64,000 nucleotides of DNA. Source: Cryobacterium sp. PH31-L1. GTDB lineage: Bacteria > Actinomycetota > Actinomycetes > Actinomycetales > Microbacteriaceae. A program made the position numbers and the translations under genes. Shown one piece after another: positions 11,092-44,432 of the stretch. The DNA is taken from positions 124,001 to 188,000 of the forward strand of contig NZ_JASISM010000005.1 of NCBI RefSeq assembly GCF_030063145.1, written 5' to 3'. The notes below the pieces were generated by a model. The model had not been told where the DNA came from. It was given only the letters and a program-made list of their open reading frames with translations, and ran no database searches. Numbering within the stretch: position 1 is the first letter of the stretch; every line of letters begins with the position of its first letter.

Positions 11092-11442
11092 TCAGGTGTG
11101 TGTCGGCGGGTGCGGCAGAGCTGGCTTGGGCCGGGGGTCGGCTGATTCCGACGCTGATGCTGGTTCTGGTGTTCCCGGCTGCGACTGGCGCGACTGGGCC
11201 GACTGCAGCGCGGCGAGAACGCCCAGGGATCGTTTGATGCGATCTTCGGCGGCGGTGTCGACGTGGCTGGCCGCGAGGTTCGCCTCACTGACCGCGCGCA
11301 CGACCTCGTCGCGTTGAATCTTCACGCCCCGCGGTGCGTCGATGCCGATGCGCACACTATCGCCGCGGGCGTCAAGCACGGTGATGACGATATCGTCACC
11401 GATGAGGATCTTTTCCCCCGGTTTGCGTGTCAGAACGAGCAT
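11092..11442 (-). CDS. csrA: carbon storage regulator CsrA with extended C-terminus
   Basis: A 116-residue post-transcriptional regulator. The canonical CsrA fold is in the first 55 or so residues (MLVLTRKPGEKILIGDDI, VRIGIDAPRGVKI, RDEVVRAV). It binds GGA motifs in mRNA leaders and blocks translation. After the core helix there is an unusual tail of about 50 residues rich in A, S, P and Q. CsrA proteins that work with FliW often carry C-terminal extensions, but this one is long and of low complexity. It is the last gene of the minus-strand flagellar block. fliW is at 44034-44432, and candidate target hairpins precede the flagellin genes and flgB. Confidence 0.9.
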   Translation of the reverse strand: MLVLTRKPGEKILIGDDIVITVLDARGDSVRIGIDAPRGVKIQRDEVVRAVSEANLAASHVDTAAEDRIKRSLGVLAALQSAQSRQSQPGTPEPASASESADPRPKPALPHPPTHT

Positions 11443-34194: not shown

Positions 34195-35367
34195 TTACTG
34201 GAGCAGCTGCAGAACGCCCGAGTTGCTCTGGTTGGCCTGCGCGAGCATGGCCGTACCAGCCTGCGACAGAATGTTCGCACGCGTGTACTTGACCATCTCT
34301 TCAGCCATGTCGGTGTCGCGAATACGCGAACCGGCAGCGGTGAGGTTCTCCTTGGAGACGGCCAGGTTCTTGATGACGCTCTCGAACCGGTTCTGGTCAG
34401 CACCCAGCGAGGCGCGAGCCGTGGAGATCGAGGAGATCTGCTTGTCGAGCATTGAGATCGACGCAGCTGCGCCCTCGGCGCTGTCGAAGTCAAGTCCACC
34501 GCGTGTACTGTCGGTTGCGTCGGCCATGCCCGTGTTCGCTGTCGCTACCAGCGCCCCGGAGGTTATGACACCCGCTGTCACATCTTCGCCGGTGAGCGAC
34601 TTAACGTTTACGGCTCCTTTTTCATCTACGGAGGCGATCAATTTGTCGCTGAAGTTGGCGTCGCCGTTGAGGGCAGCCGCCACGTCAGCCGACGAGGATG
34701 AGGTCGTCAATCCGCTCAATGAAGCTGTATCTACCTGAGTGAGTGCCGGTGTAGCGGATGTTCCAGTATCGAATACGAAGCTTTGAACGCCCGAAACTGC
34801 GACGGTAGCGCTCAGGTCGTAGGACGCTCCCACGTTGGTCGAGGAAAGACCAGCGGTTACGTCGGAAACGTTGGCCTTCGACAGGTCCACGACGATCTGG
34901 CTGCTGGCGTCGCCGTTTGCGCCGACCTGGAAACTCAGGTTCTCGGAACCATCGAGCAGGTTGGTGCCGTTGAAGTTCGTGGACTCGCTGATGCGGGTCA
35001 GTTCCTTCGTCAGCGCCGTGACCTCGGTCTTGATCGCGCCACGCGACTCGGTGTTGTTCGAGTCGTTACCGGCCTGAACGGCGAGGTCGCGAACACGCTG
35101 CAGAATCGACTGCACCTCGTTCAACGAACCTTCAGCAGTCTGGATAACACTGACCGCGTCCTGAGCGTTACGGGCAGCAACCGTGAGGCCACCAACCTGC
35201 GACTTCAGACCCTCAGAGATTGCCAGGCCGGCCGCGTCATCCGCTGCCCGGTTGATCCGAAGACCACTCGAGAGCTTCTCGAGCGACTTCGACAGGTCGT
35301 TCTGCGTGGTGGCCAGGTTGCGGTACGCGTTGTTGGCCGCGACGTTGGTGTTTACTTGCATGCCCAT
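34195..35367 (-). CDS. fliC: flagellin 1
   Basis: A 390-residue filament subunit. The N-terminal D0/D1 (MGMQVNTNVAANNAYRNL, LSSGLRINRAADDAAGLAI) and C-terminal D1/D0 (SLGADQNRFESVIKNLAV, then MAEEMVKYTRANILSQAG) are nearly identical to the other three full flagellins; the central 160 residues are different. GGAGG sits 7 nt before the ATG. Its leader has a sigma-28-like promoter and the CAUGGAUG hairpin. Confidence 0.95.
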   Translation of the reverse strand: MGMQVNTNVAANNAYRNLATTQNDLSKSLEKLSSGLRINRAADDAAGLAISEGLKSQVGGLTVAARNAQDAVSVIQTAEGSLNEVQSILQRVRDLAVQAGNDSNNTESRGAIKTEVTALTKELTRISESTNFNGTNLLDGSENLSFQVGANGDASSQIVVDLSKANVSDVTAGLSSTNVGASYDLSATVAVSGVQSFVFDTGTSATPALTQVDTASLSGLTTSSSSADVAAALNGDANFSDKLIASVDEKGAVNVKSLTGEDVTAGVITSGALVATANTGMADATDSTRGGLDFDSAEGAAASISMLDKQISSISTARASLGADQNRFESVIKNLAVSKENLTAAGSRIRDTDMAEEMVKYTRANILSQAGTAMLAQANQSNSGVLQLLQ

Positions 35368-35400
35368 GATGGATCCTCCGTGACTGGGACTGAATTCTCC

Positions 35401-35416
35401 GGCCCATCCATGGGCC
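35401..35416 (-). promoter_or_regulatory. CAUGGAUG hairpin in flagellin 1 leader
   Basis: GGCCCATGGATGGGCC forms a GGCCC/GGGCC stem with an AUGGAU hexaloop, matching the CsrA consensus CANGGANG. A second copy of the consensus, CACGGAGG, overlaps the Shine-Dalgarno sequence at about 35375-35382. Confidence 0.65.
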
Positions 35417-35427
35417 AGCACTTATAC

Positions 35428-35454
35428 CTATCGACAGCAACCGCTCCCGGGTTA
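35428..35454 (-). promoter_or_regulatory. sigma-28-like promoter for flagellin 1
   Basis: Minus strand TAAC, exactly 15 bases, GTCGATAG. It lies just upstream of the leader hairpin; the same arrangement precedes flagellins 3 and 4. Confidence 0.7.
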
Positions 35455-35484
35455 GAAACTCGCAGCGATCGCGGGTTAAAAGGA

Positions 35485-35523
35485 GGCGGCATCCGCTCGT
35501 AGTGATTACGAGCGGATGCCGCC
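35485..35523 (-). terminator. terminator of flagellin gene 2
   Basis: A 17-bp perfect stem (35485-35501 with 35507-35523) and 5-base loop, followed on the minus strand by CTCCTTTTAA. It lies 35 bases past the flagellin 2 stop. Both arms contain the over-represented GCATCCGCT/AGCGGATGC oligomer. Confidence 0.75.
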
Positions 35524-35557
35524 GATCACGCATCAGGTTCTGACGCGGTCACTGGTG

Positions 35558-36661
35558 TTACTGGAGCAGCTGCAGAACGCCCGAGTTCGACTGGTTAGCC
35601 TGCGCGAGCATGGCTGTACCAGCCTGCGACAGGATGTTCGCACGGGTGTACTTGACCATCTCTTCCGCCATGTCGGTGTCGCGAATACGCGAACCAGCAG
35701 CGGTGAGGTTCTCCTTCGAGACGGCCAGGTTCTTGATGACACTCTCGAACCGGTTCTGGTCAGCACCAAGCGAAGCACGGGCCGTGGAAATGCCGGAGAT
35801 CTGACGGTCCAGTGCGGTGATGGCCGCAGCGGCACCCTCGGCGGAGGAGAAGTCCAGGCCGCCGATCTTGCTAACGTCCCCGCCAACCGTCAGCCCAGTA
35901 GATGTAAACGAATCTCCAGCGTTATTTTTTACGCTGACCTGATCAAATTCGTCGACGCCTGCGGTGTACTTGGCGCTGAAGGTGGCGTTTTCATTCAACG
36001 CTTTCGCTGCGTCTGCGGCAGTTCCACCGGTCGCGAAGGTGACGGAAGTGCTCGTCACATCACTCCCCACAGTAAAGGTGAGGGCCGTAGCGCCAGCGGC
36101 AGGAACGTCGTAGGACTTGCCGACGTTGGTCGAGCCGATGGCCTTGGTGACGTCGGAGACGTCCGCCTTGCTCAGGTCAACCGAGATCTGGCTGCTGGCA
36201 TCGCCGTTGGCTCCGACCTGAAAGCTCAGGGTCGGCTTCGTGCCGTCGAGCAGCTGGGTGCCGTTGAAGTTCGTGGACTCGCTGATGCGAGTGAGTTCCT
36301 TCGTCAGCGCCGTGACCTCGGTCTTGATCGCTCCACGCGACTCTTCGTTGTTCGAGTCGTTACCGGCCTGAACGGCCAGGTCACGAACACGCTGCAGAAT
36401 CGACTGCACCTCGTTCAACGAACCTTCAGCCGTCTGAATAACACTCACTGCGTCCTGAGCGTTACGAGCGGCGACCGTGAGGCCACCAACCTGCGACTTC
36501 AGACCTTCAGAGATTGCCAAGCCGGCCGCGTCATCCGCCGCCCGGTTGATGCGAAGACCACTGGAAAGCTTTTCCAGCGACTTCGACAGGTCGTTCTGCG
36601 TGGTGGCCAGGTTGCGGTACGCGTTGTTGGCCGCGACGTTGGTATTTACTTGCATGCCCAT
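35558..36661 (-). CDS. fliC: flagellin 2
   Basis: A 367-residue flagellin, the shortest of the four full copies. Its conserved ends match flagellin 1, and the central domain is distinct but shares IGSTNVGKSYD-type and GGLDFSSAEGAAAAI segments with flagellin 4. The leader has the hairpin and CAUGGAGG over the Shine-Dalgarno, but no sigma-28-like promoter, and two hairpins separate it from flagellin 3 upstream. Expression may depend on read-through. Confidence 0.95.
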   Translation of the reverse strand: MGMQVNTNVAANNAYRNLATTQNDLSKSLEKLSSGLRINRAADDAAGLAISEGLKSQVGGLTVAARNAQDAVSVIQTAEGSLNEVQSILQRVRDLAVQAGNDSNNEESRGAIKTEVTALTKELTRISESTNFNGTQLLDGTKPTLSFQVGANGDASSQISVDLSKADVSDVTKAIGSTNVGKSYDVPAAGATALTFTVGSDVTSTSVTFATGGTAADAAKALNENATFSAKYTAGVDEFDQVSVKNNAGDSFTSTGLTVGGDVSKIGGLDFSSAEGAAAAITALDRQISGISTARASLGADQNRFESVIKNLAVSKENLTAAGSRIRDTDMAEEMVKYTRANILSQAGTAMLAQANQSNSGVLQLLQ

Positions 36662-36695
36662 GAGATTTCCTCCATGACTGGGACTGGGTGTGCCA

Positions 36696-36709
36696 GCCCA
36701 TCCATGGGC
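36696..36709 (-). promoter_or_regulatory. CAUGGAUG hairpin in flagellin 2 leader
   Basis: GCCCATGGATGGGC gives a GCCC/GGGC stem with an AUGGAU loop. The Shine-Dalgarno region reads CATGGAGG, a second CANGGANG match. Confidence 0.6.
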
Positions 36710-36731
36710 CAGCAGTGAAACGTGTTGGTGC

Positions 36732-36767
36732 CAGGCGCCGCCGGGCTTGGTAGCCCGCCGGCGCCTG
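36732..36767 (-). terminator. large hairpin between flagellins 3 and 2
   Basis: A 16-bp stem with one mismatch (36732-36747 with 36752-36767) and a 4-base loop. A second smaller stem (CGCGTCAG/CTGACGCG, 36777-36795) sits between it and the flagellin 3 stop. Neither has a clear U-run. Confidence 0.6.
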
Positions 36768-36805
36768 CCGGGTGACCGCGTCAGAAACTGACGCGATCAC
36801 TCGTG

Positions 36806-38086
36806 TTACTGGAGCAGCTGCAACACGCCCGAGTTGGACTGGTTGGCCTGCGCGAGCATGGCGGTACCGGCCTGCGACAGGATGTTCGCACGGGTGTATT
36901 TGACCATTTCCTCGGCCATGTCGGTATCGCGAATACGCGAACCGGCAGCGGTGAGGTTCTCCTTCGACACGGCCAGGTTCTTGATGACACTCTCGAACCG
37001 GTTCTGGTCCGCACCCAACGAGGCGCGAGCCGTCGAGATAGCCGAGATCTGCGTGTCGAGAAGCTTGATCGCGTTGGCTGCCTCACCCGCGTCCGTAAAC
37101 TTCAAAGCAGTTAGAGCGTCAGAGTAGACGGCAGTGACGCCATCATTGTTGTACGTAGCGGCCGACCCGGCGCTAAAAGACGCGGTGTTCGAGAGAGCCG
37201 CGCCATCCGTAGCCGAGTCAGTGCTGTTCTGGGATGCATTAATCACCACAGAAATCGGCTTGCTAGCGGGCTGGCTGCCCCCTACAAACGATTTTTCTAT
37301 GGTGTACACGCCACTAGATTCGCTGATGGAATAGCCAGAAAATGCCGTGGTCAACGCAGAAGTGATTTGGCTTTGATCCATGGCGGCGTTTGTCGTTCCA
37401 AGAAACACGTTCTTGGAAACGCCGTCTTGAGTCAACGTGTAGTTACCACTTGCGTCAGCATCCTTCAGACTGACGACTATGCGGTCATAGCCATTTACGG
37501 CTGCATCTTTTTCAGTCGCTGCGGTGCCCGCAGTGAGGAGAGCAGCGGGTACGCCGTTCGCCAATGTGTTGACAACAGAAGCAACGTTGGCTTTCGACAG
37601 GTCCACGGAAATTTGACTACTGGCTGAACCGTTGGCTCCGACCTGAAAGCTCAGGTTCGGCTTCGTGCCGTCGAGCAGCTGGGTGCCGTTGAAGTTCGTC
37701 GACTGGCCGATGCGGGTCAGTTCCTTGGTCAGCGCCGTGACCTCGGTCTGAATGGCGCCGCGCGACTCGGTGTTGTTCGAGTCGTTACCGGCCTGAACGG
37801 CCAGGTCACGAACACGCTGCAGAATCGACTGCACCTCGTTCAACGAACCTTCAGCGGTCTGAATAACACTGACCGCGTCCTGAGCGTTACGAGCGGCAAC
37901 CGTAAGGCCACCAACCTGCGACTTCAGACCTTCAGAGATTGCGAGGCCGGCCGCGTCATCCGCTGCCCGGTTGATACGAAGACCACTGGAAAGCTTTTCC
38001 AGCGACTTCGACAGGTCGTTCTGTGTAGTTGCCAGGTTGCGGTACGCGTTATTCGCCGCAACGTTGGTGTTGACTTGCATGCCCAT
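36806..38086 (-). CDS. fliC: flagellin 3
   Basis: A 426-residue flagellin, the longest copy. The N- and C-terminal conserved domains match the others. The central 200 residues (about 37100-37600) are unrelated in sequence, visibly lower in GC and use A/T-ending codons, which suggests an imported or rapidly diverging D2/D3 domain. It has a sigma-28-like promoter and leader hairpin of its own. Confidence 0.95.
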   Translation of the reverse strand: MGMQVNTNVAANNAYRNLATTQNDLSKSLEKLSSGLRINRAADDAAGLAISEGLKSQVGGLTVAARNAQDAVSVIQTAEGSLNEVQSILQRVRDLAVQAGNDSNNTESRGAIQTEVTALTKELTRIGQSTNFNGTQLLDGTKPNLSFQVGANGSASSQISVDLSKANVASVVNTLANGVPAALLTAGTAATEKDAAVNGYDRIVVSLKDADASGNYTLTQDGVSKNVFLGTTNAAMDQSQITSALTTAFSGYSISESSGVYTIEKSFVGGSQPASKPISVVINASQNSTDSATDGAALSNTASFSAGSAATYNNDGVTAVYSDALTALKFTDAGEAANAIKLLDTQISAISTARASLGADQNRFESVIKNLAVSKENLTAAGSRIRDTDMAEEMVKYTRANILSQAGTAMLAQANQSNSGVLQLLQ

Positions 38087-38119
38087 TTGAGTTCCTCCGT
38101 GACTGGGACTACGTGCGCC

Positions 38120-38135
38120 GGCCCATCCATGGGCC
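38120..38135 (-). promoter_or_regulatory. CAUGGAUG hairpin in flagellin 3 leader
   Basis: The same GGCCCATGGATGGGCC palindrome as in flagellin 1. The Shine-Dalgarno region again reads CACGGAGG. Confidence 0.65.
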
Positions 38136-38146
38136 AGCACTTATGT

Positions 38147-38173
38147 CTATCGACCGCAGCGTTCAGGCCGTCA
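38147..38173 (-). promoter_or_regulatory. sigma-28-like promoter for flagellin 3
   Basis: Minus strand TGAC, exactly 15 bases, GTCGATAG. The -10 and the spacing to the leader hairpin match flagellin 1; the -35 differs by one base. Confidence 0.6.
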
Positions 38174-38256
38174 GAAGAACCGGCTGAACAGGCGCGTTCG
38201 GGGGGTGCCGTGGCCAGGGACAGCGCGATTGAATTCGCGGTGCCCCGGCTACAGCG

Positions 38257-38279
38257 ACCGGATCAGACTCTGATCCGGT
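38257..38279 (-). terminator. hairpin after flagellin gene 4
   Basis: ACCGGATCAG and its exact complement CTGATCCGGT around a 3-base loop, 10 bases past the stop codon. No obvious U-run. Confidence 0.6.
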
Positions 38280-38290
38280 GGTGAGGCGTA

Positions 38291-39406
38291 TTACTGGAGC
38301 AGCTGCAGAACGCCCGAGTTGCTCTGGTTGGCCTGCGCGAGCATAGCGGTGCCAGCCTGCGACAGGATGTTCGCACGGGTGTACTTGACCATTTCCTCGG
38401 CCATGTCGGTATCGCGAATACGCGAACCGGCAGCGGTGAGGTTCTCCTTGGAGACGGCCAGGTTCTTGATGACACTCTCGAACCGGTTCTGGTCCGCACC
38501 GAGCGAGGCGCGAGCCGTCGAGATGCCGGAGATCTGACGGTCCAGAGCCGTGATAGCTGCAGCAGCACCCTCGGCCGAGGAGAAGTCCAAGCCACCGATG
38601 GTGCTCTGCTTGGCGGCATCTGCAAGTTCTGTCGTCGACTTCTCGTCGATGACGCCACCGGCAATGGCCTTAACGTTCAACGCGCCGTTCTCGTCGACCG
38701 ATGCAATCAGCTTCGCGCTGAAGCCGCTGTCGGAGTTCAACTCGTCTGCAGCATCCTGAGCGGTTCCGCCTGCTGCAAAAGCGACTGTTCCAGTAGTGAC
38801 GGCTACCGTATCGATAGTGAAAGCAACGGTTGTGACGCTGGCACCGGGCGTCGCAAAGGACGTTCCGACGTTGGTCGAGCCGATGGCCTTGGTGACGTCG
38901 GAGACGTCGGCCTTCGAGAGATCTACGGCAATCTGACTGCTGGCGTCGCCGTTGGCTCCGACCTGAAAGCTCAGGGTCGGCTTGGAACCATCAAGCAGCT
39001 GGGTGCCGTTGAAGTTCGTGGAGTCGCTGATGCGAGTGAGTTCCTTGGTCAGTGCTTCGACCTCGGTCTTGATCGCGCCACGCGACTCGGTGTTGTTCGA
39101 GTCGTTACCGGCCTGAACGGCCAGGTCGCGAACACGCTGCAGAATCGACTGCACCTCATTGAGCGAACCTTCAGCAGTCTGAATGACACTCACTGCGTCC
39201 TGAGCGTTGCGGGCAGCAACCGTGAGGCCACCAACCTGCGACTTCAGACCCTCAGAGATTGCGAGGCCGGCCGCGTCATCCGCTGCCCGGTTAATGCGAA
39301 GACCACTCGAAAGCTTCTCGAGCGACTTCGACAGGTCGTTCTGCGTGGTGGCCAGGTTGCGGTACGCGTTGTTGGCCGCGACGTTGGTGTTTACTTGCAT
39401 GCCCAT
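38291..39406 (-). CDS. fliC: flagellin 4
   Basis: A 371-residue flagellin with the shared N- and C-terminal domains. Its central domain is related to flagellin 2 (shared IGSTNVGTSF-like and AADELNSDSGFSAKLIASVDENGA-like blocks) and partly to flagellin 1. GGAGG lies 7 nt before the ATG. It has its own sigma-28-like promoter and leader hairpin. Confidence 0.95.
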   Translation of the reverse strand: MGMQVNTNVAANNAYRNLATTQNDLSKSLEKLSSGLRINRAADDAAGLAISEGLKSQVGGLTVAARNAQDAVSVIQTAEGSLNEVQSILQRVRDLAVQAGNDSNNTESRGAIKTEVEALTKELTRISDSTNFNGTQLLDGSKPTLSFQVGANGDASSQIAVDLSKADVSDVTKAIGSTNVGTSFATPGASVTTVAFTIDTVAVTTGTVAFAAGGTAQDAADELNSDSGFSAKLIASVDENGALNVKAIAGGVIDEKSTTELADAAKQSTIGGLDFSSAEGAAAAITALDRQISGISTARASLGADQNRFESVIKNLAVSKENLTAAGSRIRDTDMAEEMVKYTRANILSQAGTAMLAQANQSNSGVLQLLQ

Positions 39407-39437
39407 GGTGGATCCTCCGTGAGTGGGTCGTGGTACA

Positions 39438-39457
39438 CCAGCCCATCCATGGTCTGG
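39438..39457 (-). promoter_or_regulatory. CAUGGAUG hairpin in flagellin 4 leader
   Basis: Minus strand CCAGACC-AUGGAU-GGGCUGG: the outer stem has changed relative to the other copies (CCAG/CUGG with one A-G mismatch), yet the loop and its ability to pair are kept. The Shine-Dalgarno region reads CACGGAGG. Confidence 0.6.
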
Positions 39458-39466
39458 CAACTCTTG

Positions 39467-39493
39467 CTATCGACCGTTTTGCTGTGGGGGTTA
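39467..39493 (-). promoter_or_regulatory. sigma-28-like promoter for flagellin 4
   Basis: Minus strand TAAC, exactly 15 bases, GTCGATAG, upstream of the leader hairpin. Confidence 0.7.
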
Positions 39494-39535
39494 GATTCCG
39501 ATACGAGATTGGCCCCCGAGTAGGCCGCACAACAC

Positions 39536-39568
39536 GAAGACGCTGTTCCACGAAGGGACAGCGTCTTC
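39536..39568 (-). terminator. hairpin after the mini-flagellin gene
   Basis: A stem of about 14 bp (GAAGACGCTGTTCC at 39536-39549 with GGGACAGCGTCTTC at 39555-39568, one G-U pair and one mismatch at the tip side), 17 bases beyond the mini-flagellin stop. It separates that gene from the flagellin 4 promoter. Confidence 0.6.
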
Positions 39569-39585
39569 AAGAAAGATCAAGCAGC

Positions 39586-39927
39586 CTAGGCTGCGGGGCG
39601 GAGCAGCTGCAGAACGTCGGAGTTCGCCTGGTTGGCCTGGGCAGAGACCGCGGTGACCGGCTGGGCGAGAATGCTCACGCGGGTGAGGTCCACCATCTGC
39701 TCGGCCATGGCATTGTTGGTCAGGCGCGATGCGGCTGCGAGGGTGTTCTCGGCTGAGACGGCACGGGTCTTGCCTTCGAAGTCGACACGGTCAGCGGCAA
39801 CGACAGACTCGGTCGAGGCGAGTCCGCTGGAGATGGCCACGGTCGGCTGCGCGAGACTGGTCTGTGAGTCCGCGAGTTTGCGGTACGCGTCCGATGCCGA
39901 GGTGTTGGTGTTGACCTGCATACCCAT
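39586..39927 (-). CDS. mini-flagellin (D0/D1 termini only)
   Basis: A 113-residue flagellin-like protein. The first 48 residues align with flagellin D0 (MGMQVNTNTSASDAYRKLAD, ISSGLAS). The last 65 align with the flagellin C-terminus (SAENTLAAASRLTNNAMAEQ, MVDLTRVSILAQ, then QANQANSDVLQLL). The whole central region, about 260 residues, is missing. The frame is intact and the leader retains the CAUGGAUG hairpin and a CACGGAAG element, although substitutions in both termini are many. It sits 69 nt after the sigma-factor gene. It may be a decaying remnant, a filament or junction minor subunit, or a decoy for FliS, FliW or CsrA. Confidence 0.75.
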   Translation of the reverse strand: MGMQVNTNTSASDAYRKLADSQTSLAQPTVAISSGLASTESVVAADRVDFEGKTRAVSAENTLAAASRLTNNAMAEQMVDLTRVSILAQPVTAVSAQANQANSDVLQLLRPAA

Positions 39928-39959
39928 GATGGTTTCTTCCGTGAGGTGTTCTGAAGCCG

Positions 39960-39973
39960 GCCCATCCATGGGC
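39960..39973 (-). promoter_or_regulatory. CAUGGAUG hairpin in mini-flagellin leader
   Basis: GCCCATGGATGGGC, the same loop and stem core as the full flagellins. No sigma-28-like promoter is found; the gene is probably transcribed with the sigma-factor gene. Confidence 0.55.
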
Positions 39974-39995
39974 TAGCGGTGAGATTACTGAAAAG

Positions 39996-40829
39996 TCAGG
40001 ATGCTGCGCGTTCGACCGTGTCGAACTGCAGGTGTTCGTGCGCGGTGCGGGTCATTCCCACCGTGGCGAGGTCGGCGAGTCGTGCGAGGTAGGCGCTGCG
40101 GCGAGCCGGAGCAATGCGCGACTCCGGCTGATACGCAGCCGCAGTTTCGATTTCGTCGGCGTAGTGCGTGCTGAGTCCGTCACGCAGCAGGCGAATCGCC
40201 TCGGCGCGCATCTGGGAAACAGCGGAGTGCGTGGTGCCCAGTTCGGCGGCGATGTCTTTGACCGGGCGGTCGTCGAAGTAGATCTGCTCAACGATGGCCC
40301 GCATCTTCTCCGGGAGGGCCGCGACGGCCGCGCGAAGGTAGACCAGGCGTTCGCTGGAAAGCAGTGACTCTTCGGGCATCGCGGTGTCAGCCACGAGAAA
40401 CTCGGCGGTCGTGTCGTCGAGGGCCGAGAGGGTGCGGGCCGCGTCGGCCAGGCCGGCCGCGGCCGTGTCGCGGTCGACGCCGAGAGCATCGGCGATCTCG
40501 TTCACGTTCGGGATGCGTCCGAGCGCAGCCGCGAGGGTCTCCTGCACGGCCATGGTCTCTTTGATGCGGCGGCGAGCGGAGCGGGTGGCCCAGTCGCTCG
40601 AGCGCATCTCGTCGGCGAAAGCACCGATGATGCGGCGCCGGGCGAAGGCGCCGAAGGGAACTCCGAGGGTGGGGTTGAAAGCATCCGCTGAGGTGATGAG
40701 AGCGACAGCGCCGGCCGACGCGAGGTCGTCGCGGGACAGGTGCCGAGCCTTGGCCCAGACCTCCGACACGAGGTAACCGACCAGGGGCAGATTCTCCACG
40801 ACAAGGGCATTGCGGTCAGTGCGATTCAC
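39996..40829 (-). CDS. fliA: FliA/WhiG-type flagellar sigma factor
   Basis: A 277-residue sigma-70-family factor. Region 2 is NRNALVVENLPLVGYLVSEV-like and AFARRRIIGAFADEMRSSDW. Region 3 is around ALGRIPNVNEIADALGVD. Region 4 is LPEKMRAIVEQIYFDDRPVK and IAAELGTTHSAVSQMRAEAI. It is the presumed reader of the T[TAG]AC-N15-CGATAG promoters. The GTG at 40829 is chosen as the point where conserved region 1.2/2 begins; the frame stays open far upstream and starts at about 40907 are possible. No flgM-type anti-sigma gene was recognised. Confidence 0.88.
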   Translation of the reverse strand: MNRTDRNALVVENLPLVGYLVSEVWAKARHLSRDDLASAGAVALITSADAFNPTLGVPFGAFARRRIIGAFADEMRSSDWATRSARRRIKETMAVQETLAAALGRIPNVNEIADALGVDRDTAAAGLADAARTLSALDDTTAEFLVADTAMPEESLLSSERLVYLRAAVAALPEKMRAIVEQIYFDDRPVKDIAAELGTTHSAVSQMRAEAIRLLRDGLSTHYADEIETAAAYQPESRIAPARRSAYLARLADLATVGMTRTAHEHLQFDTVERAAS

Positions 40830-41138
40830 GTGCGGCCCCCGAGCTTTTCCTGCCAATTGTCGAATGTGCACGGAAGGGCTGATGCGCCTCCCGCGAGAGG
40901 CTCCCATGCCTGCGAAATCAAAGCTACTCGAAGTAAGGGGTAAATGGGTAGCGCTACAAGGCCCATTCGATACATTGGCATGTCCTCTCTTCTGAGGACA
41001 CGATTGAGCAAATCCGCAAGAATTCGGGGGATTTTGCCTAACCATGGTCGCCCAGCAGCCGATAGTGCCAACGAATGAACCAGAGCACACGCACCCGTGT
41101 GACCCTGAGCGCGAGTCAAATTGTGGGCTGGAGGAGTC
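40830..41138. other. divergent intergenic region between sigma factor and flgN
   Basis: 309 bp without a supported gene. It contains the flgN promoter (41039-41065), a perfect palindrome GTAGCGCTAC (40948-40957), a small stem GTCCTC/GAGGAC (40982-40999), and a CACACG/CGTGTG stem (41085-41100) in the flgN leader. It is lower in GC than the flanking genes. The promoter of the sigma-factor gene should be here, but I could not identify it. Confidence 0.5.
41039..41065 (+). promoter_or_regulatory. sigma-28-like promoter for flgN-flgK-flgL-fliW
   Basis: Plus strand TAAC, exactly 15 bases, GCCGATAG: the best match to the FliA consensus in the window. The start is predicted about 65 nt upstream of the flgN ATG. 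Confidence 0.75.
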
Positions 41139-41624
41139 ATGGGCGCCAACGAATTGTCTGCGTTGCTCTGGCGAGAACGTGAACTTCTCGAGTTGCTCGT
41201 CTTCAAACTCGAAGAGGAACAGCTTCTGCTGCAGGGCGGGAAGTCCCGCTGGCTGCAACACGCCACTCGCGAGGTCGAACAGGTTTTGAACCTCGTGCGC
41301 GAAGCCGGACTCGGGCGTTCCGTCGAGGTAGCCGCACTGGCCACCCAGTGGGGAACAGCCGAAGACGCCACTCTTCGTGAACTCGCCGCCAATGCTCCCG
41401 AAGGGCCGTGGGGCGAAATCTTGGCCGCGCACCTCAAGGCCATGGGAGACCTCACCACCCAAATCAAAGAACTCCGAGACACCAACGAACGATTCATTCG
41501 TTCCGCGGCCCGCTCCACCCAGGAAACCCTGACCACGGTCAGCGCCAACCCCAAGACCTACGACGCCAGCGGGGTCACCGACGACCCGGTGACCGCGGCC
41601 CGCATTTTCGACCGCAACCTATAA
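41139..41624 (+). CDS. flgN: FlgN-family chaperone
   Basis: A 161-residue helical protein, the export chaperone for FlgK and FlgL. ANELSALLWRERELLELLVF and KLEEEQLLLQGG form the FlgN N-terminal helix. A GGAGGAG sequence lies 2-8 nt before the chosen ATG. The order flgN-flgK-flgL is conserved in many bacteria. Confidence 0.85.
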   Translation: MGANELSALLWRERELLELLVFKLEEEQLLLQGGKSRWLQHATREVEQVLNLVREAGLGRSVEVAALATQWGTAEDATLRELAANAPEGPWGEILAAHLKAMGDLTTQIKELRDTNERFIRSAARSTQETLTTVSANPKTYDASGVTDDPVTAARIFDRNL

Positions 41625-43113: not shown

Positions 43114-44037
43114 ATGGTCGATCGGGTAACTACTCATACCCAGATGCGCGCTGCCCAGCGCAACCTGCAGGAGAACATGACGCACCTCGCGCGGCTGCAG
43201 GAGCAGGCGAGCACGCTCAAGTCCATCAACCGTTCCTCGGACGATCCGACCGCGGCCGCAGCCGCTATGGCAGTACGGGCCGAAATGCGTGCGGTCGATC
43301 AGTACAGCGCCAACGCCGACAATGGCAACGACTGGCTGACCACGATCGAATCCTCGCTCGGGTCGGTGTCGGGCATCATGAACCGCGTGCGTGACCTCAC
43401 CGTGCAGGGCGCCAACTCCGGCTCGCTGTCCGCGACGGCCAAAGAGGCCATTGCCATTGAGATCGACGGACTCAAAACCGACCTTCTCTCGCAGGCCAAC
43501 ACCAAGTTTCTCGGGCGCAGCGTCTTCGCCGGCAACTCGGATGATGCCACGGCATTCACCGCAGGCACTGACAGCAGCGGCGGGACGACCTATGCATACG
43601 CGGGTGACCCTGCGGGCTCGAGCGGCGTCGAACGGCGCATCAGCGCGACGAGCACCGTGCGTGTCGACGCCGACGGCGGCACCATCTTCGGCAGAAACGA
43701 AGCATCGGTATTTGCGCTGCTCGACAATATTGTCGCCGACCTGCGCTCCACCGACAGCGCGGCCAACGTGGGCTCGCACCTTGACGCGCTCGACGATCGG
43801 ATGGCCATCATGACCGGTCAGCGTAGCGAAATGGGCGCCCGCCAGGTGCAGATGGAACGTGCCCAGTCGACCCTGCTGCAAAAGACCGGCACACTGGATG
43901 CCCAACGGTCCGGCATCGAAGACGCCGACCTGGGCCAGGTCATCATCGATTTGAAACTGCAGGAAGTGACCTATCAGGCCGCGCTCGCTGTTACCGCCCG
44001 TGTACTTCAACCGACCCTGATGGACTTTCTTTCATGA
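43114..44037 (+). CDS. flgL: flagellar hook-filament junction protein FlgL
   Basis: A 307-residue HAP3, flagellin-like in its termini. N-terminal TTHTQMRAAQRNLQENMTHL, LKSINRSSDDPTAAAAAM and VSGIMNRVRDLTVQGANSG, and C-terminal DLGQVIIDLKLQEVTYQAAL with VLQPTLMDFL, fit FlgL. It overlaps fliW by 4 nt. Confidence 0.94.
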   Translation: MVDRVTTHTQMRAAQRNLQENMTHLARLQEQASTLKSINRSSDDPTAAAAAMAVRAEMRAVDQYSANADNGNDWLTTIESSLGSVSGIMNRVRDLTVQGANSGSLSATAKEAIAIEIDGLKTDLLSQANTKFLGRSVFAGNSDDATAFTAGTDSSGGTTYAYAGDPAGSSGVERRISATSTVRVDADGGTIFGRNEASVFALLDNIVADLRSTDSAANVGSHLDALDDRMAIMTGQRSEMGARQVQMERAQSTLLQKTGTLDAQRSGIEDADLGQVIIDLKLQEVTYQAALAVTARVLQPTLMDFLS

Positions 44038-44432
44038 CGACGACCCACACCAGCCCCACCCTCAGCTTCGTCTCCCCCCCGCCGGGGTTGGCACCGCTCA
44101 CCGACTTCGTGCTCAACGCGATCGAGGGGGCCGCTGGACTCTACTCGCTGCAGGCATCCGCTCACCCGACCACGCGCCTGTTCGTGCTCGACGCGGCCAT
44201 CTTTCTACCCAACTACACCCCGACGATCTCCAGCGAGCAGTCGATCGCGCTGTCGCTGACGACGCCCGACAATGCCCTCGTGCTCGTGGTCGTCAACCCC
44301 GGCGAGAGCACCACGACGGTCAACCTCATGGCACCCATCGTGGTCAACGCCCGCACCGGCGCCTGCGCGCAGCTCATTCTGGACGATCAGGACTGGCCCC
44401 TGCACGCCGAGCTCGGCACCGGCGAAAACTGA
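44034..44432 (+). CDS. fliW: flagellar assembly factor FliW
   Basis: A 132-residue protein that sequesters CsrA and is itself titrated by flagellin. The C-terminal motif VNLMAPIVVNARTG, followed by QLILDDQDWPL, is the FliW signature, and LYSLQASAHPTTRLFVLD matches the centre. It is co-expressed with late hook-filament genes, away from csrA at 11092. With CsrA-type sites in the flagellin leaders, this predicts homeostatic control like that of Bacillus subtilis hag. Confidence 0.9.
   Translation: MTTTHTSPTLSFVSPPPGLAPLTDFVLNAIEGAAGLYSLQASAHPTTRLFVLDAAIFLPNYTPTISSEQSIALSLTTPDNALVLVVVNPGESTTTVNLMAPIVVNARTGACAQLILDDQDWPLHAELGTGEN

Follow-up and report, generated by a model that had tools for sequence, protein, structure and literature searches.

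Can one translational switch govern a whole family of flagellins? The question is raised by a 64,000-nucleotide (nt) stretch of Cryobacterium sp. PH31-L1 (Microbacteriaceae; assembly GCF_030063145.1, contig NZ_JASISM010000005.1, positions 124,001 to 188,000), hereafter the window. It holds four flagellin genes and a gene for a mini-flagellin, each behind a similar leader, and, as a sequence-only reading of this DNA had stated, both csrA and fliW. Judged from sequence, these leaders are very probably CsrA targets of the Bacillus subtilis hag type, predicted to be repressed by CsrA and relieved by FliW.

Five leaders share a two-site CsrA-type element

Reading of the window sequence placed a two-part CsrA-type site on the minus strand before 4/4 flagellin genes and before the mini-flagellin gene, which encodes a D0-only flagellin. 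In each leader, an octamer CATGGATG lies in a short inverted repeat and is followed by a second octamer of the form CANGGANG over the Shine-Dalgarno (SD) sequence. The upstream hairpin-loop site is present by sequence in 5/5 leaders, as is the CANGGANG-like site overlapping the SD, and all ten elements that the sequence-only reading had matched to the CsrA consensus are found as CANGGANG on the minus strand. Start to start, the two sites are spaced by 30 nt in the four flagellin leaders and by 27 nt in the mini-flagellin leader. The features are as follows.

34195..35367, minus strand: flagellin gene 1 (Flagellin_N and Flagellin_C matches)
35375..35382, minus strand: flagellin 1 SD site CACGGAGG (sequence)
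35398..35419, minus strand: flagellin 1 hairpin, loop site 35405-35412 CATGGATG (sequence, covariance model, fold)
35428..35455, minus strand: flagellin 1 sigma-28-like promoter CTAAC...CGATAG (by eye)
35558..36661, minus strand: flagellin gene 2 (open reading frame, flagellin search)
36669..36676, minus strand: flagellin 2 SD site CATGGAGG (sequence)
36692..36713, minus strand: flagellin 2 hairpin, loop site 36699-36706 CATGGATG (sequence, covariance model; minimum-energy fold differs)
36806..38086, minus strand: flagellin gene 3 (open reading frame, flagellin search)
38094..38101, minus strand: flagellin 3 SD site CACGGAGG (sequence)
38117..38138, minus strand: flagellin 3 hairpin, loop site 38124-38131 CATGGATG (sequence, covariance model, fold)
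38147..38174, minus strand: flagellin 3 sigma-28-like promoter, CTGAC variant...CGATAG (by eye)
38291..39406, minus strand: flagellin gene 4 (first 95 residues match Flagellin_N)
39414..39421, minus strand: flagellin 4 SD site CACGGAGG (sequence)
39437..39458, minus strand: flagellin 4 hairpin, loop site 39444-39451 CATGGATG (sequence, covariance model; minimum-energy fold differs)
39467..39494, minus strand: flagellin 4 sigma-28-like promoter CTAAC...CGATAG (by eye)
39586..39927, minus strand: mini-flagellin gene, 113 amino acids, flagellin ends only (profile, alignment, substitution rates)
39936..39943, minus strand: mini-flagellin SD site CACGGAAG (sequence)
39956..39977, minus strand: mini-flagellin hairpin, loop site 39963-39970 CATGGATG (sequence, covariance model, fold)

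The hairpins exist as the sequence-only reading described them, at positions 3-6 nt higher than it gave. Its account of the flagellin 4 stem holds for the paired change, A-U in place of G-C, and omits an unpaired A.G next to the loop. Flaws occur in other stems as well, namely one A.C in the mini-flagellin stem and an outer G.A in that of flagellin 1.

Judged by eye against the sigma-28 promoter consensus, three full flagellins carry such a promoter ahead of the leader, and the same layout precedes many flagellins of relatives. For flagellin 2 (start at 36661) and the mini-flagellin no sigma-28-like promoter was seen by eye, and both CsrA-type sites are nonetheless kept, which fits a translational role. 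A strong inverted repeat at 36720-36800, terminator-like by eye, lies between flagellin 3 and flagellin 2, the gene before which no such promoter was seen.

Taken singly, CANGGANG sites are no more frequent in the window than chance predicts (47 against 46.5 expected from shuffled sequence), and lone sites were dropped as evidence. The spaced pair CATGGATG-N10-35-CAYGGARG, by contrast, matches five times in the 3.66-Mb genome, and all five matches are the window leaders; the reversed pattern, used as a control, has no match in the same 3.66 Mb. A covariance model trained on 63 diverse leaders, the genome's own five among them, scores these five at E ≤ 1.1e-9. It found no further strong copy in the whole genome (next match E 0.13), given that it detects flagellin-like leaders only and that weaker or single-site targets would escape it. 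In five genomes without detected flagellin (G011, G016, G041, G347 and G351) its best E-values ran from 0.017 to 0.31. Weak matches in G028, G420, G081 (C347), G015 (C27) and this genome (C29:69376) were inspected and found unconvincing, that in G028 having a fair hairpin. Rfam gave no match at its gathering threshold within the window.

The hairpin site is conserved and its stem covaries

Searches for flagellin gave matches in 46/60 relatives, 31/296 class genomes and 62/199 family genomes, in samples that overlap one another and count PH31-L1 itself. From these, 159 leaders in Actinomycetia could be read, one for each flagellin gene with a placeable start. Both sites in strict form are present in 136/159 (including L047, after its start was re-placed): all five own leaders, 49/49 from the same genus, 57/59 from the family and 25/46 from the order or class. 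The commonest spacing between sites is 29-30 nt (79/135 leaders), and the SD site ends 7-8 nt before the start codon in 104/136. We counted a CANGGANG as a hairpin site when it lay over 14 nt ahead of the start codon and within the 130 nt read, which by rough arithmetic is expected by chance in about 4% of leaders. It is kept in 152/159, a count free of selection for CANGGANG; the hairpin site thus does not drift freely among related genomes. One order-level flagellin leader (L068, 8080-8151 and upstream) has two consecutive CACGGACG hairpins before the SD site, three sites in total.

The stem covariation that the sequence-only reading had proposed looking for is present. In an alignment of 63 leaders, 84.9% of stem cells pair and two-sided changes occur in 7/8 pairs; sliding the partner by one column lowers pairing to 45-47%. 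Cells changed on both sides number 63, against 18.6 in shuffles, with none of 500 shuffles as high, although related sequences can exceed shuffles. Because kinship can inflate this test, we compared leaders whose hairpins differ, grouped into 72 disjoint nearest pairs. These contain 45 double changes that keep pairing, where 2000 permutations average 8.9 and reach at most 20, together with 49 single changes that keep pairing.

csrA accompanies flagellin

The two regulatory genes in the window are each the sole match in the genome.

11092..11442, minus strand: csrA, 116 amino acids with a C-terminal extension; L4, R44 and N55 present
44034..44432, plus strand: fliW, profile match

Their products match the CsrA profile PF02599 at 85.3 bits (cut-off 27) and the FliW profile PF02623 at 81.6 bits (cut-off 25). 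L4, like R44 an RNA-contact residue of CsrA, is present in 37/37 CsrA reads, and R44 and N55 are present in the 36/36 that are long enough (two genes were read twice). Some 33 kb separate csrA from fliW; in B. subtilis, by contrast, translation of csrA is coupled to fliW (PMC6529632). In several class members, e.g. G111, G207, G240 and G269, csrA directly adjoins fliW.

Two sets of 80 genomes were searched for CsrA; they leave out G514, a flagellin-positive family genome, and the 24 negatives of the second set were chosen among genomes listed without a flagellin match. In the first set csrA was found in 70/71 flagellin-positive and 0/9 flagellin-negative genomes, and in the second in 56/56 and 0/24, which amounts to 126/127 flagellin-positive against 0/33 flagellin-negative genomes tested. 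The sole miss, G081, is an assembly 80% complete in about 450 contigs. FliW was found in 69/71 flagellin-positive genomes (absent from G028 and G081) and in 1/9 flagellin-negative ones. CsrA thus comes and goes with flagellin in the tested genomes, in line with flagellin control being an ancient task to which CsrA of FliW-type bacteria is devoted, and CsrA in this family looks dedicated to flagellin-leader control.

A FliW match (C1:3374931-3375281) occurs in G016, a Cryobacterium genome without detected flagellin or csrA. In G350 (L223 2269-2320, minus strand), a CsrA-type hairpin CAGCCCACGGAAGGGCTG and an CAGGGATG near the start precede flbD, motA, motB and csrA (names assigned by eye), so that CsrA self-control is possible there. 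As a leader-model match it is better than the weak ones found unconvincing.

Proposed mechanism and alternatives

In the mechanism we propose, one RNA surface of a CsrA dimer would occupy the upstream hairpin, with its ANGGAN loop closed by C-G, and the other the SD site 27-30 nt downstream; the bridging CsrA would keep the ribosome off each flagellin and mini-flagellin message. Export of flagellin through the flagellum would free FliW from flagellin, and free FliW would then bind the C-terminal extension of CsrA, allowing translation to resume. We infer CsrA binding, repression, FliW relief and the resulting feedback: the repression step from sequence, covariation and co-occurrence, the relief step from the presence of FliW and of CsrA N55, plus work in other phyla. 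In B. subtilis, hag is repressed through two sites and FliW binds the CsrA C-terminus (PMC7652899); there, a CsrA N55D dimer partner has been used to remove a FliW site, and the loop runs near 1:1:1:1 stoichiometry with the flagellin Hag (PMC6529632).

The CsrA-FliW-flagellin switch that the sequence-only reading had put forward gains support from covarying stems, the kept hairpin site, the co-occurrence of csrA and fliW with flagellin and the conserved CsrA residues. Its suggestion that the switch acts on a whole flagellin family at once fits the sequence, with the qualifications that before 2/5 genes no separate sigma-28-like promoter was seen by eye and that CsrA control of several flagellins has precedents.

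Several observations count against this interpretation. Sixteen leaders, all from the order or class, have the hairpin site only, their SD copy being not CANGGANG but mostly CCAGGA; six of the 159 have the strict form of neither site, and one (L072) has the SD site only. Among those seven, L072, L123, L136 and L182 retain by eye a hairpin with an TANGGANG loop, and L116, L148 and L183 do not. G023, counted as csrA-positive and supplying the 37th CsrA read, carries a csrA truncated to 47 codons together with an intact flagellin leader. The 72-pair test also holds changes that make or break a pair, 29 of them double and 55 single, indicating that the stem tolerates mismatches, and the invariance of the loop in both covariation tests is by construction, since leaders were chosen for having CANGGANG. 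The minimum-energy fold holds the hairpin core in 3/5 own leaders, and the leaders at 36661 and 39406 fold with the loop paired to the SD or start region. Folding z-scores of the five are 0.29, -0.82, -2.54, 0.93 and 0.24, of which one clearly beats shuffled sequence. Support for the hairpin therefore comes from comparison and not from folding energy, which we set aside as weak evidence. As for the shortened csrA of G023 (a single contig, L210), it may be an assembly error or a real loss.

We weighed three other explanations. Five leaders per genome amount to many CsrA sites, in Campylobacter jejuni the flaA leader is able to work as a sponge (PMC4894983), and a leader without a flagellin is kept in five Cryobacterium relatives (see below); all this would suit leaders that, like that of flaA, chiefly titrate CsrA and free its other targets, flagellin repression being secondary. 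We regard this as improbable, as this genome has neither a further strong copy of the element, within the reach of a model that sees flagellin-like leaders only, nor an orphan leader.

It is less likely still that the hairpin alone serves as an RNA-stability element or a ribosome-binding switch without CsrA, its resemblance to CANGGANG being incidental. In the minimum-energy folds of two leaders the loop is indeed paired to the SD or to the start region, as such a switch might be, and the 16 leaders with the hairpin site only also speak for it. Yet a site kept in 152/159 leaders while the stem changes in pairs is the pattern of a loop read by a protein, and CsrA is found in 126/127 flagellin genomes and absent from 33/33 without flagellin.

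Least credible of all is that the leaders are alike merely as recent tandem duplicates copied with their genes, with no need of a CsrA function: the four flagellins are indeed close paralogues sharing leader sequence (gene 3 is 86-92% identical to the others at the N-terminus), but various families of the class retain the element, its stems covarying, and it also fronts the mini-flagellin, which shows no sigma-28-like promoter by eye and differs in surrounding sequence.

Relation to known systems

Control by CsrA and FliW through paired leader sites is of a kind already known from B. subtilis hag, C. jejuni flaA and the BS2-like match proposed for Kineococcus. Like B. subtilis hag, the Cryobacterium system has two CsrA-type leader sites, one of them over the SD, a CsrA with an extended C-terminus and a fliW gene (PMC7652899, PMC6529632); unlike B. 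subtilis with its single hag, Cryobacterium has four flagellins and a mini-flagellin. It shares with C. jejuni flaA the CANGGANG-like hexaloops and, as predicted, control by CsrA and FliW. Several flagellar leaders are bound in C. jejuni, those of flaA and flaB by CsrA in vitro; flaA differs in that its two GGA motifs sit in adjacent hexaloops at 21-nt spacing and its leader doubles as a sponge (PMC4894983).

CsrA control of an actinobacterial flagellin was already proposed in 2008 for Kineococcus radiotolerans, with 9/12 bases matching hag BS2 (PMC2587704), and in 2022 CsrA sites were reported near the SD of two spirochete flagellins, flaB1 and flaB2 of Treponema denticola (PMC9481697). As excerpted, these two accounts describe no hairpin site, covariation or distribution, unlike what is found for the Cryobacterium leaders. 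A 2015 survey in PLoS One proposed FliW as a CsrA regulator in phyla including Actinobacteria and, in the excerpted text, treats genes only, with no leader elements (PMC4682653); in that of a paper on flagella in Actinobacteria, CsrA and FliW appear just as search queries (PMC10746217). Among the matches listed in the open-licence literature, as excerpted, there was no study of Cryobacterium CsrA leaders or of a natural D0-only flagellin.

As far as those matches show, the following are new: a covariation-backed element in Actinomycetia that has no Rfam match in the window, the tie between CsrA and flagellin across the tested genomes, and the presence of the element on a five-gene family that includes a conserved D0-only flagellin, and the orphan leaders. 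Covariation evidence would thereby carry the CsrA-FliW-flagellin feedback, known chiefly from Bacillus and Campylobacter, over to flagellated actinobacteria. In a genome that has a mini-flagellin, five putative target leaders and a csrA distant from fliW, how a stoichiometry like that of the B. subtilis loop is held becomes directly testable.

A conserved mini-flagellin behind a sigma-factor gene

The mini-flagellin retains approximately the first 40 and last 60 residues of flagellin, with most of D1 gone. Directly upstream of it lies one further feature.

39996..41462, minus strand: open frame containing a sigma factor of flagellar type (matches to sigma-70 regions 2 and 4; the real start is probably internal)

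Eleven mini-flagellin copies, of 110-123 amino acids, align over their length and share the invariant prolines P28 and P90, one in each end part. Upstream of 11/11, at a distance of 67-123 nt, lies the end of the sigma-factor gene, identified from its tail. Domain search gave Flagellin_C at 23.5 bits against a cut-off of 23 and did not list Flagellin_N. A mini-flagellin profile also matches approximately the first 40 residues of full flagellins; among named records it found 15 loci, 13 in Cryobacterium and two as weak matches in Leptospiraceae. In the 199-genome family sample, a full mini-flagellin occurred only in three Cryobacterium genomes, with full flagellins matching in part, and the 75%-complete G405 had one partial match with a stop.

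The ratio of non-synonymous to synonymous substitution rates (dN/dS) is 0.06-0.11 in five close pairs, so the mini-flagellin looks like a working gene, and we ruled out that it is decaying. An AlphaFold model (11 rows) contains helices only, at a mean predicted local distance difference test score (pLDDT) of 56.7, a quality insufficient for a fold search. The place of the mini-flagellin behind the sigma-factor gene raises the idea of a stand-in for FlgM. No FlgM match above cut-off was found in 24 Cryobacterium genomes, of which 11 gave a mini-flagellin and 13 did not (weak noise in 7/24), a result that speaks neither for nor against the idea.

The reduced flagellin FlaC of Campylobacter likewise stands beside full-length ones, but it keeps D0 and D1 and binds FliS, not FliW (PMC5466977), whereas the mini-flagellin is without most of D1. 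In B. subtilis, the first 60 or 72 residues of flagellin bind FliW, which protects residues 11-34, 50-72 and 240-260 (PMC6070490); by eye in the alignment, these FliW-bound residues are partly retained in the mini-flagellin. The mini-flagellin may be a FliW decoy, although FlaC binds FliS and not FliW. It may also buffer FliS or FliW, serve as a junction protein, be secreted or have some other function.

Orphan leaders upstream of fliD

In five Cryobacterium relatives, a two-site leader with a sigma-28-like promoter and no flagellin behind it lies upstream of fliD. Four were found with the leader model (in G018, G015, G009 and G035), and the fifth is in Cryobacterium sp. Y50.

L228, 743-802, plus strand: orphan leader
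L231, 5104-5163, minus strand: orphan leader
L230, 5228-5287, minus strand: orphan leader
L229, 752-811, plus strand: orphan leader
L254, near 1512: orphan leader

This amounts to 5/17 whole flagellin-bearing Cryobacterium genomes searched with the model (samples of 14 and 3); in most other genomes of the genus selected stretches were searched, and the model found no orphan leader in the genome of PH31-L1. The start codon is lost in 4/5, reading ATT in three and ATC in one, and the remaining leader has an ATG with a 47-codon frame. The frame that follows the leader looks by eye like the decayed start of a flagellin.

Among the first four species the 59-nt leader is identical at 54-59/59 positions, and promoter plus leader at 88-90%. 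In those species identity is 62-70% at the four-fold sites of fliD and 60-80%, with gaps, over the sequence from leader to fliD. The leader, more alike than either, thus seems kept for itself, either within the fliD message or as a putative CsrA sponge. It carries two CsrA-type sites only, against several in Csr sponge small RNAs of the CsrB/RsmZ kind, which are non-coding and antagonise CsrA.

More speculatively, and with the odds rather against it, the two-site leader of Cryobacterium could be a portable module of CsrA control that can do without an ordinary flagellin. It would govern a D0-only mini-flagellin made together with the flagellar sigma factor, perhaps as an internal probe or buffer of the flagellin chaperone FliS or of FliW, and as a leader-only RNA before fliD in five relatives, its start codon mostly gone, it would titrate CsrA or tie fliD to the switch. 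If true, this would be a CsrA-sponge RNA in a FliW-type organism.

In the four aligned orphan loci, an inverted repeat of approximately 12 bp lies shortly before fliD and, by eye, seems to covary.

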